Assembly (NCBI RefSeq): GCF_045679555.1
Contig: NC_092099.1
Span: forward strand, 10,214,076 to 10,278,075
Direction of reading: 5' to 3'
Source of the DNA: Salvelinus alpinus
Taxonomy: Eukaryota > Chordata > Actinopteri > Salmoniformes > Salmonidae
Length of the DNA stretch: 64,000 bases
Part shown: positions 6,368 through 62,957 of the stretch, piece after piece
Layout: every line of letters starts with the position of its first letter
Numbering within the stretch: the first letter of the stretch is position 1
Program-made: the position numbers and the translations under genes
The notes under the pieces: model-generated
Database searches by the model: none
Told to the model about the DNA's origin: nothing
What the model saw: only the letters and a program-made list of their open reading frames with translations

Positions 6368-6389
6368 GGTGTGTGTATTTTCTTTCTCT

Positions 6390-6480
6390 CTGCATTGTTG
6401 GGAAGGGCCCGTATGTAAGGGTTTCACTGCTAGTCTACACCTGTTGTTTACGAAGCATGTAACAAATAAAATGTGATTTG
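6390..6480 (+). mobile_element. LINE 3' tail fragment
   Basis: The segment reads CTGCATTGTTGGGAAG to AACAAATAAAATGTGATTTG, like the end of the LINE at 9830-10431 plus 16441-16482. Only the tail is present. Confidence 0.6.
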
Positions 6481-6653
6481 CACATATCAATACAAAGCTT
6501 GTAATTGTGGGTGACTATAATGATATAGGCTATTCACACTATCACATTAAATAATTTCCAGTGTATTGACCATAAAGTTAATGATCAATACTTTATGGTC
6601 ATAACAAACTAGGCTACAGCTAACCAGGTTTTTTGTGTTTGTAAATTTCACAG

Positions 6654-6773: not shown

Positions 6774-7129
6774 GTGGTCCGTTCCAAAAGTCCCCAGGCC
6801 CTTAATACTACCTCCTCTTTTCATAGGTGTCCAAGTTGCCTAAATTAGTTTCCGTCCCTCGTATCCTTTCTTTCATGTCAACTCAATATAATCCATGTTC
6901 TCCTTGAGTTTTATGGTTGAAATAAGCCACCATATTCACCTATTAGTGGTCATACAGTTGGAAAGGAGACAGGGAAAGGACCATCAGACATGGCATGCCA
7001 GTCACTCAGTGGCCTCTCACAACAGCAGGACTTTGGTAAGACCACACCCCAGTGCCGTGCCCATTTCTGTGGGGGCAGAGACTATGACCTCACCAGCGCA
7101 TTATTGTCGTTCTTGCTGCTGGTGAGTCT
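6774..7129. other. Unassigned sequence after the hibch exon
   Basis: Presumed former hibch intron. I see no exon with the expected terminal HIBCH motif (a VDKDQSPKW-like peptide) here. Confidence 0.3.
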
Positions 7130-7710
7130 CTGATCCACCTCTACGCAGACGACACCATTCTGTATACTTCTGGCCCTTCTTTGGACACTGTGTTAACAAC
7201 CTTCCAGGCGAGCTTCAATGCCATACAACTCTCCTTCCGTGGCCTCCAATTGCTCTTAAATACAAGTAAAACTAAATGCATGCTCTTCAACCGATCGCTG
7301 CCTGCACCTGCCCGCCTGTCCAACATCACTACTCTGGACGGCTCTGACTTAGAATATGTGGACAACTACAAATACCTAGGTGTCTGGTTAGACTGTAAAC
7401 TCTCCTTCCAGACTCACATCAAACATCTCCAATCCAAAGTTAAATCCAGAATTGGCTTCCTATTCCGCAACAAAGCATCCTTCACTCATGCTGCCAAACA
7501 TACCCTTGTAAAACTGACCATCCTACCAATCCTCGACTTCGGTGATGTCATTTACAAAATAGCCTCCAATACCCTACTCAATGAATTGAGTAACTCTGTG
7601 TTGCTCTATGTGTCGAACTGCTTTGCTTTATCTTGGCCAGGTCGCAGTTGTAAATGAGAACTTGTTCTCAACTTGCCTACCTGGTTAAATAAAGGTGAAA
7701 TAAAAAATTG
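7130..7710 (+). mobile_element. LINE fragment: RT palm end plus 3' tail
   Basis: In one frame from about 7132 the translation gives HLYADDTILYTSG, the reverse transcriptase YADD catalytic box, then the thumb region with YKYLGVWLDCKLSFQTHIK. At about 7588 coding sequence jumps to the 3' tail (TTGGCCAGGTCGCAGTTG, then TTAAATAAAGGTGAAATAA). It is 5' truncated and internally deleted. A second copy of this tail, with more 3' UTR, is at 49266-49750. Confidence 0.8.
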
Positions 7711-8582: not shown

Positions 8583-9829
8583 AGAATTATTGGCAAAGGG
8601 CAATATTTCTCATTACAGTTGGTGGTGCAAAGAATCAAATGTTTGTTTTGGTGAGTAGGTGGAGTAGCTGGGTAAGGAAGAGGTTCTATCCTGTTTGAAG
8701 TATCACATAACTTGGGATGGTACTGTCAGGTGGTTTTTATGGCCCTTGTTGAGTCATACTTTCCTGTTTACTAGTGCATGTCAGTCTGTCCAATACATGT
8801 CCCAATACATTCAATCAAATACACAATGCAGGAAGCCTACACTGGGAAAACACCAGGTCAAAATGTACAACCTACTGTAATTTCTACCTAATTTGCATTT
8901 TAATGAAAATGGCGATTTTGCAGCACTTGAGCTGTTATATTATTTTTCCTGCAGTGTGGCTTTGATTGAATTTCTCTGTACGCAGCTCAAATCATTGGTT
9001 ATATTAAATCCCATTTGCAGCACTCAAACCCTCAGCACACAGTTAAGAGCACTTACAGGCTCCCAGAGAGAAATGAGGCCAGAGAAGCTAAATGACCCGC
9101 CATGGAGTTTTGCTAAGTAAACAATGAACCAGCATACACTCTCTCTCTGGAGAACACAGGCTCAGTAATTCTCTTGGTGTCAGAGATTTTATGGTTTAGA
9201 ATTTCCCCTTCAAAACGCACCAGCCGGGTATCGTTCTTCTTAATGTCTTTTGCCCTTGTCATGTATCTGGAGTGATCACTCAGTGTTGCATTTGCCATTG
9301 TATTACTGTATGCTAAAGGCCAGTTCTCAATTCACTGTGCACCCTGGTGTACAATTCAATGACTACAATTTCCCAACTAGTAGCTTCAAACGTATGTTGT
9401 ATAATAATTATGTTGATAAAGATGTGTATGAAAAAAAATATATATATAATTTGATGTTTTGTTTGAAGTTGTTGACAAAAGCATAATTACACTGTACCTG
9501 TCTATGTAACTATATATTTAACACTTAGTTGTATATTCCATTTATAAAGTGGAATGTTAAACATTGGCTTTGTGTACAAGCCTGTATTGTTCAGCTGCTA
9601 AAGCTTCTGAGTCACTATATCAAAGGTCATTTGTGTGATCCATTAATCCATTTGGCCGATTAGAAATCTCCTGGACCTGACAGTCTATCAGCTAATCTAA
9701 TGATTCAGTTCATGTTACAGGGACATAACACAGGCGCAGAGGGGGCTGTTGGCCCTGGATAGGCAAGAATGGGTTGAGCACATGATCAAATCTGTTTCAA
9801 CTCTAGGTAGTGGATATTCCTCAAAAAGT
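8583..9829. other. Unassigned sequence
   Basis: No supported gene or repeat. Short ORFs in it have no recognisable motif. Confidence 0.3.
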
Positions 9830-10431
9830 TCTACAGCTGCACCATCAAAAGCATTCTGACCAGTTGCATCACCGCCTGGTATGGCAACTGCTCGGCATCC
9901 GACCGTAAGGCGCTACAGAGGGTAGCGCGTATAGCCCAGTACATCACTGGGGCCAAGCTATCTGCCATCCAGGACCTCTATACTAGGCGTGTCAGAGGAA
10001 GGCCCAAAAAATGGTCGAAGACTCCAGCCACCCAAGTAATAGACTGTCCTCCTTGCTCCCGCACGGCAAACGGTACCAGAGCGCCAAGGCTCCTTAACAG
10101 CTTCTACTCCCAAGCCATAAGACTGCTGAACAATTAATGAAATGGCTACCCGGACTATTTGCACTGCCACTGATGCTACTCACTGTTTATTATCTATGCA
10201 TAATCACTTTACCCCTACCTACAAGTACATATTACCTCAATTACCTTGACTAAACTGTACACCCGCACATTGTCTCGGTACCGGTCTCCCCTGTACATAG
10301 TCTTGTTATTGTTATTTTATTGTAACTTTTTTTACTTTCATTTATTTTGTAAATATTCTCTTAACTCTTATTTTCTTAAAACTGCATTGTTGGTTAACTT
10401 GTAAGTAATCATTTCACGGTAAGGTCTACAC
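9830..10431 (+). mobile_element. LINE C, 3' end, left segment
   Basis: It encodes, in decayed form, the extreme C-terminal RT region (CTIKSILTSCITAWYGNCSAS-like peptide), followed by a long 3' UTR. It stops at TACAC (10427-10431), where LINE B is inserted. The missing end of its tail resumes at 16441-16482. Confidence 0.75.
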
Positions 10432-10470
10432 AAATCAAATCAAATGTTATTGGTCACATACACATGGTTA

Positions 10471-13400
10471 AATCAAATCAAATCAAATTTATTAGTCACA
10501 TACACATGGTTAGCAGATGTTAATGCGAGTGTAGCGAAATGCTTGTGCTTCTAGTTCCGACAATGCAGTAATAACAACAAGTAATCTAACCTAACAATTC
10601 CGCAACTACTACCTTATACACGCAAGTGTAAAGGGATAAAGAATATGTACATAAAGATATATGAATGAGTGATGGTACAGACGGCATAGGCAAGGTGCAG
10701 TAGATGGTATAGAGTACGGTATATACCTATGAGATGAGTACTGTAGGGTATGTAAACATAAAGTGGCATAGTTTAAAGTGGCTAGTGGTCCATGTATTAC
10801 ATAAGATGGCAAGATGCAGTAGATGATATAGAGTACAGTATATACATATACATAAGAGATGTGTAATGTAGGGTATGTAAACATTATATTAGGTGGCATT
10901 GTTTAAAGTGGCTGGTGGTACATTTTTACATAATTTCCATCAATTCCCATTTTTAAGGTGGCTGGAGCTGAGTCAGTTTGTTGGCAGCGGCCGCTAAATG
11001 TTAGTGGTGGCTGTTTAACAGTCTGATGGCCTTGAGATAGAAGCTGTTTTTCAGTCTCTCGGTCCCTGCTTGGATGCACCTGTACTGACCTCGCCTTCTG
11101 GATGATAGCGGGGTGAACAGGTAGTGGCTTGGGTGGTTGTTGTCCTTGATGATCTTTATGGCCTTCCTGTGACATCGGGTGGTGTAGGTGTCCTGGAGGG
11201 CAGGTAGTTTGCCCCGGGTGATGCGTTCTGCCGACCTCACTACCCTCTGGAGAGCCTTACGGTTGTGTGCGGAGCAGTTGCCGTACCAGGCGGTGATACA
11301 GCCCGACAGGATGCTCTCGATTGTGCATCTGTAGAAGTTTGTGAGTGCTTTTGGTGACAAGCCGAATTTCTTCAGCCTCCTGAGGTTGAAGAGGCGCTGC
11401 TGCGCCTTCTTCACAACGCTGTCTGTGTGGGTGGACCAATTCAGTTTGTCCGTGATGTGTACACCGAGGAACTTAAAACTTTCCACCTTCTCCACTACTG
11501 ACCCGTCGATGTGGATAGGGGGGAGCTCCCTCTGCTGTTTCCTGAAGTCCACAATCATCTCCTTTGTTTTGTTGACGTTGAGTGTGAGGTTATTTTCCTG
11601 ACACCACACTCCGAGGGCCCTCACCTCCTCCCTGTAGGCCGTCTCGTCGTTGTTGGTAATCAAGCCTACCACTGTAGTGTCGTCCGCAAACTTGATGATT
11701 GAGTTGGAGGCGTGCATGGCCACGCAGTCGTGGGTGAACAGGGAGTACAGGAGAGGGCTCAGAACGCACCCTTGTGGGGCCCCAGTGTTGAGGATCAGCG
11801 GGGTGGAGATGTTGTTACCTACCCTCACCACCTGGGGGCGGCCCGTCAGGAAGTCCAGGACCCAGTTGCACAGGGCGGGGTCGAGGCCCAGGGTCTCGAG
11901 CTTGATGACGAGTTTGGAGGGTACTATGGTGTTAAATGCTGAGCTGTAGTCGATGAACAGCATTCTCACATAGGTATTCCTCTTGTCCAGATGGGTTAGG
12001 GCAGTGTGCAGTGTGGTTGCGATTGCGTCGTCTGTGGACCTATTGGGTCGGTAAGCAAATTGGAGTGGGTCTAGGGTGTCCGGTAGGGTGGAGGTGATAT
12101 GGTCCTTGACTAGTCTCTCAAAGCACTTCATGATGACGGAAGTGAGTGCTACGGGGCGGTAGTCGTTTAGCTCAGTTACCTTAGCTTTCTTGGGAACAGG
12201 AACAATGGTGGCCCTCTTGAAGCATGTGGGAACAGCAGACTGGGCTAAGGATTGATTGAATATGTCCGTAAACACACCAGCCAGCTGGTCTGCGCATGCT
12301 CTGAGGACGCGGCTGGGAATGCCGTCTGGGCCTGCAGCCTTGCGAGGGTTAACACGTTTAAATGTTTTACTCACCTCGGCTGCAGTGAAGGAGAGCCCGC
12401 AGGTTTTGGTAGTGGGCCTTGTCAGTGGCACTGTATTATCCTCAAAGCGGGCAAAAAAGGTATTTAGCCTGTCTGGGAGCAAGACATCCTGGTCCGCGAC
12501 GGGGCTGCTTTTCTTTTTGTAATCCGTGATAGACTGTAGACCCTGCCACATACCCCTTGTGTCTGAGCTGTTGAATTGCGATTCAATTTTGTCTCTGTAC
12601 TGGGACTTAGCCTGTTTGATAGCCTTGCGGAGAGAATAGCTACACTGTGTGTATTCGGTCATGTTTCCGGTCACCTTGCCCTGGTTAAAAGCAGTGGTTC
12701 GCGCTTTCAGTTTCACGCGAATGCTGCCGTTAATCCACGGTTTCTGGTTTGGGAATGTTTTAATCGTTGCTCTGGGTACGACATCGTCAATGCACTTCCT
12801 AATGAACTCGCTCACCGAATCTGCATATTCATCATTGTTGTTGTTGGACGCCGTGCGGAACATATTCCAATCCGCGTGATCAAAGCAGTCTTGAAGCGTG
12901 GATTCAGATTGGTCGGACCAGCGTTGAACAGACCTGAGCGTGGGAGCTTGTAGTTTTAATTTCTGTTTGTAGGCTGGAATCAACAAAATGGAGTCGTGGT
13001 CAGCTTTTCCGAAAGGAGGGCGGGGGAGGGCCTTATATGCGTCGCGGAAGTTAGTATAACAATGGTCCAGAGTTCTGCCAGCCCTGGTCGGACAATCGAT
13101 GTGCTGATAGAATTTAGGGAGTTTTGTTTTTAGATTAGCCTTGTTAAAATCCCCAGCTACGATGAATGCAGCCTCAGGGTGTGTGGTTTCCAGTTTACAG
13201 AGAGTCAGATAGAGTTCGTTCAGGGCCATCGATGTGTCTGCTTGGGGGGGAATATATACGGCTGTGATTATGACCGAAGTGAATTCCCTTGGTAGATAAT
13301 GCGGTCTACATTTGATTGTGAGGAGTTCTAGATCAGGTGAACAGAATGACTTTAGTTCCTGAGTGTTGTTATGATGGTCACACCACGTCTCGTTAATCAT

Positions 13401-13974
13401 GAGGCATACCCCCCCGCCCCTCTTCTTACCAGAAAGATGTATGTTTCTGTCTGCGCGATGCGTGAAGAAACCAGCTGGCTGCACCGACTCCGTTAGCGTC
13501 TTTTCAGTTAGCCATGTTTCCGTGAAGCAGAGCACGTTGCAATCCCTGATGTCTCTCTCGAATGTTACCCGTGCTCGGATTTCATCGACCTTATTCTCAA
13601 GAGACTGGACATTGGCGAGTAGTATGCTAGGGAGTGGAGCGCGATGTGCTCGTCTCCGAAGCCTGACCAGGAGACCGCTACGTTTGCCCCTTTTTCGGCG
13701 TCGTGTAGCTTCGCCGGCTGGGATCAGGTCCATTGTATTGGGTGGAAGGCAAGACACTGGATCCGTTTCGGGAAAGTCATATTCCTGGTAGGAAGGGTGG
13801 TTAGTTGACGTTAATCGTATATTCAGTAGTTCCTCCCGGCTGTATGTAATGAAACTTAAGATCACCCGGGGTACCAATGTAAGAAATAACACATAGAAAA
13901 ACAAAATACTGCATATTTTCCAAGGAACGCGAAGCGAGGCAGCCATCCTGTTCGGCGCCGGAAGTAACGCCAGA
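10471..13974 (-). mobile_element. LINE A, full-length non-LTR retrotransposon
   Basis: A 3.5-kb element flanked by GGTTA at 10466-10470 and 13975-13979, which is a target duplication in LINE B. The minus-strand 5' end starts CTCTGGCGTTACTTCC, only about 28 nt before the ORF start. One long ORF (11001-13946) covers endonuclease and reverse transcriptase. A 3' UTR of about 530 nt ends in repeated TTTGATT units. The RT sequence resembles fish Rex1/CR1-type (Jockey superfamily) elements; the exact clade is unconfirmed. It appears complete. Confidence 0.85.
11001..13946 (-). CDS. LINE ORF: endonuclease-reverse transcriptase, 981 aa
   Basis: This protein would nick target DNA and copy the element's RNA into it by target-primed reverse transcription. 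An apurinic-type endonuclease occupies about residues 105-325, with ANVQSLENK at 111, TETWL at 142, GDFNKA at 265 and DHD at 316. The reverse transcriptase occupies about 530-900, with RKAAGPDGI at 536, FIDYSSAFN (catalytic Asp) at 664, GAPQGCVLSPLLY at 722 and FADDTT at 753. There are no stops or frameshifts. The N-terminal 33 residues contain a strongly hydrophobic run (about 11-33), odd for a retroelement protein. Codons and domains look complete, so the copy may encode a working enzyme. It lies inside LINE A in an inverted nest and has no relation to the host genes. Confidence 0.9.
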   Translation of the reverse strand: MAASLRVPWKICSILFFYVLFLTLVPRVILSFITYSREELLNIRLTSTNHPSYQEYDFPETDPVSCLPPNTMDLIPAGEATRRRKRGKRSGLLVRLRRRAHRAPLPSILLANVQSLENKVDEIRARVTFERDIRDCNVLCFTETWLTEKTLTESVQPAGFFTHRADRNIHLSGKKRGGGVCLMINETWCDHHNNTQELKSFCSPDLELLTIKCRPHYLPREFTSVIITAVYIPPQADTSMALNELYLTLCKLETTHPEAAFIVAGDFNKANLKTKLPKFYQHIDCPTRAGRTLDHCYTNFRDAYKALPRPPFGKADHDSILLIPAYKQKLKLQAPTLRSVQRWSDQSESTLQDCFDHADWNMFRTASNNNNDEYADSVSEFIRKCIDDVVPRATIKTFPNQKPWINGSIRVKLKARTTAFNQGKVTGNMTEYTQCSYSLRKAIKQAKSQYRDKIESQFNSSDTRGMWQGLQSITDYKKKSSPVADQDVLLPDRLNTFFARFEDNTVPLTRPTTKTCGLSFTAAEVSKTFKRVNPRKAAGPDGIPSRVLRACADQLAGVFTDIFNQSLAQSAVPTCFKRATIVPVPKKAKVTELNDYRPVALTSVIMKCFERLVKDHITSTLPDTLDPLQFAYRPNRSTDDAIATTLHTALTHLDKRNTYVRMLFIDYSSAFNTIVPSKLVIKLETLGLDPALCNWVLDFLTGRPQVVRVGNNISTPLILNTGAPQGCVLSPLLYSLFTHDCVAMHASNSIIKFADDTTVVGLITNNDETAYREEVRALGVWCQENNLTLNVNKTKEMIVDFRKQQRELPPIHIDGSVVEKVESFKFLGVHITDKLNWSTHTDSVVKKAQQRLFNLRRLKKFGLSPKALTNFYRCTIESILSGCITAWYGNCSAHNRKALQRVVRSAERITRGKLPALQDTYTTRCHRKAIKIIKDNNHPSHYLFTPLSSRRRGQYRCIQAGTERLKNSFYLKAIRLLNSHH

Positions 13975-14140
13975 GGTTAGCAGATGTTAATGCGAGTGTA
14001 GCGAAATTCTTGTACTTCTAGTTCCGACAGTGCAGTAATATCTAACAAGTAATCTAACAAATTCACAACAACTACCTTATACACACAATGTAAGGGGATG
14101 GAATAAGAATATGTACATATTATATATATATATATATATA

Positions 14141-15714
14141 CACTGCTCAAAAAAATAAAGGGAACACTTAAACAACACAATGTAACTCCAAGTCAATCAC
14201 ACTTCTGTGAAATCAAACTGTCCACTTAGGAAGCAACACTGATTGACAATAAATTTCACATGCTGTTGTGCAAATGGAATAGACAAAAGGTGGAAATTAT
14301 AGGCAATTAGCAAGACACCCCCAATAAAGGAGTGGTTCTGCAGGTGGTGACCACAGACCACTTCTCAGTTCCTATGCTTCCTGGCTGATGTTTTGGTCAC
14401 TTTTGAATGCTGGCGGTGCTTTCACTCTAGTGGTAGCATGAGATGGAGTCTACAACCCACACAAGTGGCTCAGGTAGTGCAGCTAATCCAGGATGGCACA
14501 TCAATGCGAGCTGTGGCAAGAAGGTTTGCTGTGTCTGTCAGCGTAGTGTCCAGAGCATGGAGGCGCTACCAGGAGACAGGCCAGTACATCAGGAGATGTG
14601 GAGGAGGCTGTAGGAGGGCAACAACCCAGCAGCAGGACCGCTATCTCCGCCTTTGTGCAAGAAGGAGTAGGAGGAGCACTGCCAGAGCCCTGCAAAATGA
14701 CCTCCAGCAGGCCACAAATGTGCATGTGTCTGCTCAAACGGTCAGAAACAGACTCCATGAGGGTGGTATGAGGGCCCGACGTCCACAGGTGGGGGTTGTG
14801 CTTACAGCCCAACACCGTGCAGGACGTTTGGCATTTGCCAGAGAACACCAAGATTGGCAAATTCGCCACTGGCGCCCTGTGCTCTTCACAGATGAAAGCA
14901 GGTTCACACTGAGCACATGTGACAGACGTGACAGTCTGGAGACGCCGTGGAGAACGTTCTGCTGCCTGCATCATCCTCCAGCATGACCGGTTTGGCGGTG
15001 GGTCAGTCATGGTGTGGCATTTCTTTGGGGGGCCGCACAGCCCTCCATGGGCTCGCCAGAGGTAGCCTGACTGCCATTAGGTACCGAGATGAGATCCTCA
15101 GACCCCTTGTGAGACCATATGCTGGTGCGGTTGGCCCTGGGTTCCTCCTAATGCAAGACAATGCTAGACCTCATGTGGCTGGAGTGTGTCAGCAGTTCCT
15201 GCAAGAGGAAGGCATTGATGCTATGGACTGGCCCGCCCGTTCCCCAGACCTGAATCCAATTGAGCACATCTGGGACATCATGTCTCGCTCCATCCACCAA
15301 CGCCACGTTGCACCACAGACTGTCCAGGAGTTGGCGGATGCTTTAGTCCAGGTCTGGGAGGAGATCCCTCAGGAGACCATCCGCCACCTCATCAGGAGCA
15401 TGCCCAGGCGTTGTAGGGAGGTCATACAGGCACGTGGAGGCCACACACACTACTGAGCCTCATTTTGACTTGTTTTATGGACATTACATCAAAGTTGGAT
15501 CAGCCTGTAGTGTGGTTTTCCACTTTAATTTTGAGTGTGACTCCAAATCCAGACCTCCATGGGTTGATAAATTTGATTTCCATTGATAATCTTTGTGTGA
15601 TTTTGTTGTCAGCACATTCAACTATGTAAAGAAAAAAGTATTTAATAAGAATAGTTCATTCATTCAGATCTAGGATGTGTTATTTTAGTGTTCCCTTTAT
15701 GTTTTTGAGCAGTG
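14141..15714 (+). mobile_element. Element D, Tc1/mariner-like transposon
   Basis: The 1574-bp element has terminal inverted repeats beginning CACTGCTCAAAAAAATAAAG, with the complement at the right end, and is flanked by TA on both sides. It is inserted in a TA repeat of LINE B. It carries a near-complete transposase region (14438-15456). Confidence 0.9.
14438..15456 (+). pseudogene. Tc1-family transposase, frameshifted
   Basis: The likely start is the ATG at about 14438 ([16 protein letters not shown]). The first part holds two helix-turn-helix regions ([20 protein letters not shown]) and the first catalytic Asp in LFTDESRF. The frame then breaks at about 14930-15030, where small deletions are visible. 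Thereafter QDNARPH gives the second Asp and [12 protein letters not shown] the Glu, with 34 residues between them, the DD34E spacing of Tc1. All three catalytic residues are present, but the frame is broken, so the copy should be inactive on its own. Confidence 0.85.
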
Positions 15715-16440
15715 TATATATATATATGGATGTGCGATGGCCGTGCGGCATAGGCAAGATGGAATAGATGGTATAAAATACTGTATATACATATGAGATG
15801 AGTAATGTAAGATATGTAAACATTATTAAAGTGTCATTATTTAAAGTGACTAGTGAGACCATTATTAAATCACTTTATTAAAGTGGCCAGTGATTTGAGT
15901 CTGTATATAGGCAGCAGCCTCTCTATGTTAGTGATGGCTGTTTTAACAGTTTGATGGCTTTGATATTGAAGCTGTTTTTCAGTCTCTCGGTCCCAGCTTT
16001 GATGCACTGTACTGACATCGCCTTCTGGATGATAGCGAGTTGAACAGGTTACAGGTCCTTGATTATCTTTTTGGCCTTCCTGTGACATCGGGTGCTGTAG
16101 GTGTCCTGGAGTGCAGGTAGTTTGCCCCTGGTAATGCGTTGTGCAGACCGCACTACACTTTAGAGAGCCTTGCGGTTGAGGGCGGTGCAGTTGCCGTACC
16201 AGGCGGTGATACACCCTGACAGGATGCTCTCGATTGTGCATCTGTAGAAGTTTGTGAGGGTTTTAGGTGACACCTGACACTTGTCACCTGTTGCGCCTTC
16301 TTCACGATGCTGTCTGTGTGGGTGGACCATTTCAGTTTGTCCGTGATGTGTATGCCGAGGAACTTAAAACTTTCCACCTTCATTACTGTCCCGTCGATGT
16401 AGATAGGGGGGTGCTCCCGCTGCTGTATCCTGAAGTACAC

Positions 16441-16482
16441 ATGTTGTATTCGGCGCATGTGACAAATATAATTTGATTTAAT
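16441..16482 (+). mobile_element. LINE C, distal tail segment
   Basis: It reads ATGTTGTATTCGGCGCATGT and then ACAAATATAATTTGATTT. This continues the LINE C tail interrupted at 10431; the same continuous tail, without insertion, is seen at 6390-6480. Confidence 0.75.
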
Positions 16483-61800: not shown

Positions 61801-61926
61801 TATGAAAAATATTACCACAGTGGAGAGAAATGTTTTGCATACACCAAACAATGTGCTACTAGGCTTGGGTAGGTTACTTTCTAAATGTAATCCATTAGTT
61901 ACTAGTCACCTGTCCAAAAGTGTAAC

Positions 61927-62719
61927 ATCGCGGACAAACTGAAATGGTCCACCCACACAGACAGTGTGGTGAAGAAGGCGCAACAGCGCCTCTTCAACCT
62001 CAGGAGGCTGAAGAAATTTGGCTTGTCATCTAAAACCCTCACAAACTTTTACAGATGCACAATTGAGAGCATCCTGTCGGGGCTGTATCACCCGCCTGGT
62101 ACGGCAACTGCACCACCCTCAACCGCAGGGCTCTCCAGAGGGTGGTGCGGTCTGCACAACGCATCACCAGGGGGGCAAACTATCTGCCCTCCAGACACCT
62201 ACAGCACCCAATGTCACAGGAAGGCCAAAAAGATCATCAAGGACAACAACCACCCGAGCCACTGCCTGTTCACCCCGCTACCATCCAGAAGGCGAGGTCA
62301 GTACAGGTGCATCAAAGCTGGGACAGGGAGACTGAAAAATATCTTCTATCGCAAGGCCATCAGACTGTTAAAACAGCCATTACTAACACAGAGAGGCTGC
62401 TGCCTTCATACAGACTTGAGATGATTGGCCCCAATAATAAATGGAACACTAATCACTTTAATGTTTATATATTTGCAATACTCATCTCATAGGTATATAC
62501 TGTATTCTATACCATCTTAGCCTATGTCGCTCTGTCATTGCTCATCCATATATTGTTCCAGTCCTTTACTTAGATTTGTGTGTATTAAGTATCTGTTGTG
62601 GAATTGTTTGATATTACTTGTTAGATATTGCTGCACAGTCGGAACTAGAAGCACAAGCATTTCGCTACACTCACAATAACATCTGATAACCATGTGTATG
62701 TGACCAATAACATTTGATT
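61927..62719 (+). mobile_element. 5'-truncated LINE (LINE A/B family)
   Basis: It encodes, with frame breaks, the RT C-terminal region (HTDSVVKKAQQRLFNLRRLK to RLKNIFYRKAIRLLK; 61930-62380), then 3' UTR and a tail ending ACATTTGATT. It is flanked by TGTAAC at 61921-61926 and 62720-62725, a 6-bp target duplication in an older repeat (TAGGTTACTTTCTAAATGTA). Confidence 0.8.
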
Positions 62720-62957
62720 TGTAACTGATTACAGTTAGTCTTTTTGTAATCAAATTGTATTGGACATATGTACCGAATACAACGGGTATAGACTATTGTG
62801 AAACGCTTGTTTGCTTATGAGCCCTTCCCAATGATGCAGTTAAAAAATTATATGAAAAAAAGATATACTAACACAAGGAATAAATTAAAATACACAGGAA
62901 TGGAGCTATATACAGGGACTCCTAGTGCCTGATCAATGTGCAGGGGTACGAAGTATT

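Follow-up and report, generated by a model that had tools for sequence, protein, structure and literature searches.

The window analysed here is a stretch of 64,000 nucleotides of Salvelinus alpinus (NC_092099.1, positions 10,214,076–10,278,075, in an assembly of 2.37 Gb), in which four transposable elements lie one inside another. LINE C, on the forward strand, is interrupted by LINE B, on the reverse strand, at 10431/16436, and LINE B in turn contains two insertions, a full-length LINE A at 10470/13975 and, at a TA, the Tc1 transposon D. The first-pass annotation had described such a nest of four elements; its coordinates for the TACAC pair, the GGTTA pair and D (14141–15714) all proved correct on re-check, and the nest is borne out by the segment map, the joins and uninterrupted relatives of the elements. 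The parts are arranged as follows:

9819–10431, + strand: left part of LINE C, ending with the target copy TACAC (10427–10431); the left edge is approximate, at about 9819–9830
10432–10470, − strand: 3′-terminal 39 nt of LINE B (B1), ending in the target copy GGTTA (10466–10470)
10471–13974, − strand: LINE A, full length, with its 3′ tail at the left and 9 extra nt at 13966–13974
11001–13946, − strand: intact 981-aa ORF of LINE A, with RVT_1 and an endonuclease/exonuclease/phosphatase-type match just below the Pfam curated cut-off
13975–14140, − strand: middle part of LINE B (B2), starting with the second GGTTA (13975–13979)
14141–15714, + strand: Tc1 transposon D, with CACT ends, 39-nt terminal inverted repeats, flanking TA on both sides and a transposase spread over two ORFs
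15715–16435, − strand: 5′-truncated end part of LINE B (B3), placed by segment comparison and B relatives
16436–16440, no strand: second TACAC, a probable target duplication, four of whose five bases fit B's own TCCAC
16441–16482, + strand: 3′ tail of LINE C, ending in TTTGATTT-type sequence

Other LINE sequences are present in the window. Another B-type LINE, 5′-truncated and with TTAC at both edges, was seen by eye at 61920–62750; the sequence that follows it again resembles, by eye, the element's own, and a C-type tail at 62748–62783 adjoins it. In addition, 7090–7700 is apparently part of a further LINE reverse transcriptase, distinct from A, B and C, with a YADDT-like translation (by eye).

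Coding capacity of LINE A and transposon D

The 981-aa ORF of LINE A matches RVT_1 in Pfam with an E-value of 6.5e-34, and its reverse transcriptase region matches R2 and LINE-1 proteins in the PDB. The match to Exo_endo_phos (1.5e-4) reaches 22.0 bits, where the curated cut-off is 24.5, and is only suggestive of an endonuclease part. Forty copies of LINE A with flanks (L009–L048) were chosen on their shared 3′ end from 2,257 candidates, and all 40 scored identical to the window copy over 730 nt. The 3′ end is common to all 40, this being the selection criterion, while the 5′ end varies: in 23 copies it lies no more than 13 nt from that of the window copy, and 12 of these begin precisely at ACTTCCGGCGCC; the other 17 start later than nt 13. 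With its reverse transcriptase and putative endonuclease, common 3′ end and variable 5′ truncation, A is a LINE, that is, a non-LTR retrotransposon. An ORF 970 aa or more in length is kept in 15 of the 22 full-length copies that were aligned in one piece, and (TTTGA)n-type tails are found in the 40 copies and in the window copy. To judge from the copies compared, A belongs to a very young family, which may still be active. In five full-length copies (L019, L020, L021, L023 and L024), GG stands directly before the family start ACTTCC, as if extra Gs had been added at the 5′ end of the RNA. A search against Rfam gave no LINE-tail match, its four matches all being below gathering scores; folding of the tail predicts a hairpin whose loop contains TAACC, with an energy no better than that of shuffled sequences (z +1.06).

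With the short tandem repeats of its 3′ tail, A may be an L2-type LINE. It has been reported that the salmonid LINEs RSg-1 and SalL2 are abundant and are partners of tRNA-derived SINEs (PMC3747384); that A, B and C belong with RSg-1 and SalL2 is a lead only.

Transposon D is 1574 bp long, and its two transposase domains, HTH_Tnp_Tc3_2 (5.1e-23) and DDE_3 (1.4e-10), lie in two separate ORFs. The claim that B is split at TA by a Tc1-like element thus holds in its coordinates, its TA flanks and its Tc1-type transposase domains. The TA flanks sit within a (TA)n run, and because of this run the exact target TA of D cannot be singled out. DTSsa2 of Atlantic salmon has been described with a TA target, CACT ends, terminal repeats of about 40 bp and a length of about 1600 bp (PMC2198921). 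D fits this published description in all four features, in agreement with a salmonid origin of the DNA, whereas the split of its transposase over two ORFs is unlike what is described for DTSsa2.

Joints between the elements

GGTTA stands on both flanks of LINE A, and when one copy is removed together with A, B1 and B2 form one uninterrupted LINE tail, offset 0 giving the best join of 25 offsets tried. Across the GGTTA point, the assembly contains 9,161 exact and uninterrupted copies (4,532 + 4,629) of the 37-nt tail. The split of B by A at GGTTA, as first proposed, is therefore a clean five-base duplication; the case for insertion rests on the 9,161 empty tails and not on a family-wide duplication test. 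At the 5′ side, the window copy of A carries 9 additional nt (13966–13974) between the usual family start and the GGTTA copy.

Three other origins were considered for this arrangement. That A and B are a single rearranged element is ruled out, as segment comparison finds them about 80–86% alike and they lie far apart in divergence. It is very improbable that B1 and A came from one insertion, in which an A copy acquired a doubled 3′ tail when the reverse transcriptase jumped back to the 3′ end of the RNA. Such a doubled tail does occur in L079, with the same GGTTA/AATC joint (the slash marking the joint) and with AAGCA on both flanks, but here B1 fuses with B2 into a single LINE tail, and 35 of its 39 nt (positions 5–39) are identical to the B-type copy at 62687–62721, against a match of only 95% to A's own tail. 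Moreover, B3 lies 8.4% and A 0.09% from their respective family majorities, so that B and A were not made in one event, and a doubled A tail was rejected as the source of B1. An assembly artefact arising from the collapse of near-identical A copies, of which many identical ones exist, is scarcely credible: both A joints fall exactly at the five-base duplication within one older B copy, and three rare differences mark the window copy of A, one of them common to 1 of 30 others. On these grounds it was rejected as well, and the insertion of A into B is retained.

The joint between B and C is less simple. When C is joined across the insertion, its alignment score to the tail at 6380–6500 rises from 28 to 66, in agreement with the claim that removal of the insertions restores a C tail matching the uninterrupted tail at 6390–6480; of 25 offsets tried, 0 and −1 tie as best. 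None of the 20 C relatives fetched, from 39 other matches listed, has an AAATC tail at the TACAC position, and TACACCT is read in 13 of the 20. Just after CCTGAAG, the 29 fetched B relatives (39 other matches were listed) read TCCAC in 28 cases, TCCAT in one and TACAC in none. Four of the five supposedly duplicated bases thus agree with B's own sequence as well, and the A at 16437, absent from all 29, is the single base that marks TACAC as target-derived. Of the proposed split of C by B at TACAC, the insertion stands and the length of the duplication is less secure; the repeat lies partly inside B's own consensus, which bears on that length but not on the insertion.

We consider it probable that TACAC is a target duplication of about 5 bp, the overhang having paired with a cDNA end almost complementary to it; the duplication could also have fewer bases, or there could be none if one mutation is assumed. 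According to a less likely account, TACAC would not be a target duplication at all: B would extend over these bases, its TCCAC changed by one mutation, and one base would have been lost from the target, the order of insertion being the same. The TCCAC read in nearly all B relatives favours this account, but no relative reads TACAC, and the base after TACAC also occurs in two of the 20 C relatives (L087 and L098). Against it stand also the duplications of about 5 bp published for the zebrafish LINE ZfL2-1 (PMC4245944). If C without the insertion were to read TACACATG here in another individual or species, a target duplication would be favoured, while TACACCTG would not decide, and a B copy elsewhere with CCTGAAGTACAC but without the insertion would count against TACAC as a target duplication.

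Target duplications were also examined across the A family. A shared word of at least 5 nt is present at both joints in 11 of the 40 A copies, where 2.3–2.4 are expected from re-paired flanks. In 9 of the 40 the element sits within an array of tandem repeats, and 7 of the 11 copies are among these, where words repeat anyway. Outside arrays, words of at least 5 nt are found in 4 of 31 copies against 1.6 expected (P = 0.07), and 4-nt words in 11 of 31 against 6.0 expected (P = 0.03). Most of the signal for short duplications as a habit of the A family thus stems from the arrays, and the long target duplications of about 30 to more than 100 nt that local flank alignment gave for several A copies were rejected on account of the arrays. 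The order of insertion in the nest is unaffected, since it does not rest on this test.

Arrays lie at the A insertion point in 9 of 40 copies. Of 1795 stretches of 160 bp drawn at random from the window, 16 have one, as do 5 of 38 stretches of flank lying farther out. It is possible that the A family prefers micro- and minisatellites, the background here being one window only. L045, an A copy with AAGT at both edges, lies in flanks similar by eye to the body of a C-type LINE and is probably another LINE-in-LINE nest. In L009, the two flanks of the A copy are alike in inverted orientation (by eye), with a repeat array on the 5′ side.

Order, relative ages and probable mechanism of insertion

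That C preceded B, and B both A and D, was already read from the nesting, and this order follows from the map. Divergence from the family majority agrees with it for B, D and A and forms a ladder: B3 differs at 57 of 679 sites (29 relatives, some covering only a part), D at 7 of 520 sites (the best 6 of 39 other matches, over about one third of D) and A at 3 of about 3495 sites (40 relatives; one position in the 5′ extra nucleotides, covered by only two copies, is omitted). The relatives used for dating are best matches and not random copies, which can lower the divergence figures. The difference between A and D is significant by Fisher's test (P = 5e-5), and remains so (P = 1.9e-4) when the 730 nt used to choose the A copies are left out. 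By this comparison of sequences, the insertion of D comes out as earlier than that of A, an order that the first-pass annotation had left open. The divergence of D may be set beside the burst of DTSsa2 in salmon, which has been placed at about 1.8 to 0.9% divergence in the published account (PMC2198921). The C tail shows 3 differences over 73 sites compared, and C would be the oldest element, placed first by nesting alone. Taken together, four successive insertions in the order C, B, D, A are the preferred reading, with a probability of roughly 0.93.

The events may be reconstructed as ordinary target-primed LINE insertion combined with Tc1 cut-and-paste. LINE B would have entered the 3′ tail of LINE C in antisense orientation via target-primed reverse transcription, its 5′-truncated end probably being joined when a few bases of the cDNA end (TCCAC) paired with the overhang of the target (TACAC). 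D would have followed by cut-and-paste at a TA in B, and the full-length A would have come last, near the 3′ end of B, with the duplication of GGTTA and the 9 extra nt at its 5′ joint.

It has been reported that 93% of the inserts of zebrafish ZfL2-1 (CR1-1_DR) in DT40 cells carry duplications of 1–8 bp with a peak near 5 bp, and that the 5′ joint shows microhomology or additional nucleotides in every case (PMC4245944). As far as this published description goes, the nest resembles ZfL2-1 in the 5 bp GGTTA duplication, in the 5′ truncation of many copies, in the extra nucleotides at the 5′ joint of A and in the probable microhomology of B. ZfL2-1 is described as carrying ORF1 and ORF2 (PMC4245944), unlike A, which shows one long ORF. 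Full length was reported for 6% of ZfL2-1 inserts in DT40 cells (PMC4245944), compared with 23 of the 40 fetched A copies.

Landing sites in LINE tails and significance of the nest

The exact nest joint CACATGGTTA/AATC... is found at four places, the window included. In a gapped scan of 31 positions after ACACATGG, five joints were found, four of them at GGTTA/ (window included), while a second scan of the 31 positions further in gave no joints. At one of the other GGTTA/ joints (C31, L081), a B-type LINE is interrupted by a repeat about 100 nt long with an AAATC tail, and the LINE continues after it with the next base. Another is the doubled tail between AAGCA flanks in L079 (C5), which could have arisen by tandem duplication or as a nested insert of very small size, and the third (C29, L080 and L108), which may be either a nest or a doubled tail, belongs to a copy whose 5′ end lies beyond the 1,981 nt fetched. 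In C-type tails, both joints of the same scan, that of the window and that of C16 (L109), fall on the same base, and a longer-tail scan of C-type tails found no joints. In C16 the joint stands at TACCC/, where an AAATC-tailed repeat follows a C copy 76% identical to the C of the window; the inserted repeat begins like that in L081, and its far edge lies beyond the fetched sequence. The inserts at these recurring joints are not all alike. The AAATC-tailed repeat of L081 and L109 may be a salmonid SINE, although in L109 it may exceed SINE length. At G000:C20:17203591-17203645 the tail is rearranged, a new AAATC tail coming directly after GTCACATACACATGGTTAGCAGATGTTATTGGTCACATAC.

With the window excluded, three of four joints lie at GGTTA/ (P = 1.3e-4 under uniform landing); when L079, as a possible tail duplication, and L080 are dropped as well, so that L081 remains as the clear case, one of two does (P = 0.06). 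It is therefore a tentative and rather doubtful proposal that AAATC-tailed elements repeatedly hit one exact base in LINE 3′ tails, GGTTA/ in B/A-type and TAC(A/C)C/ in C-type tails, and the recurrent sites are a hint to be followed up as a lead and not a result. If the proposal is true, the nest would owe its form to a nick site favoured in kin elements and not to a chance landing.

The reading of insertion order from nested transposons is an established method, and the nest itself breaks no new ground. In the transposition-in-transposition (TinT) approach, the order of activity is read from nested insertions (PMC3014933); as that method is described, it uses genome-wide frequencies, whereas one locus together with divergence is used here. 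The nest is a well-preserved case of a common type of event, of an ordinary kind, and its value is that of a clean worked example in which nesting and divergence agree for B, D and A at one locus. In addition, it draws attention to a very young group of LINEs, many of whose copies in this genome of 2.37 Gb are intact and full-length and which would suit integration tests in the native host, and if the recurrent landing sites hold genome-wide, they would give a direct view of the nick preference of the LINE machinery.
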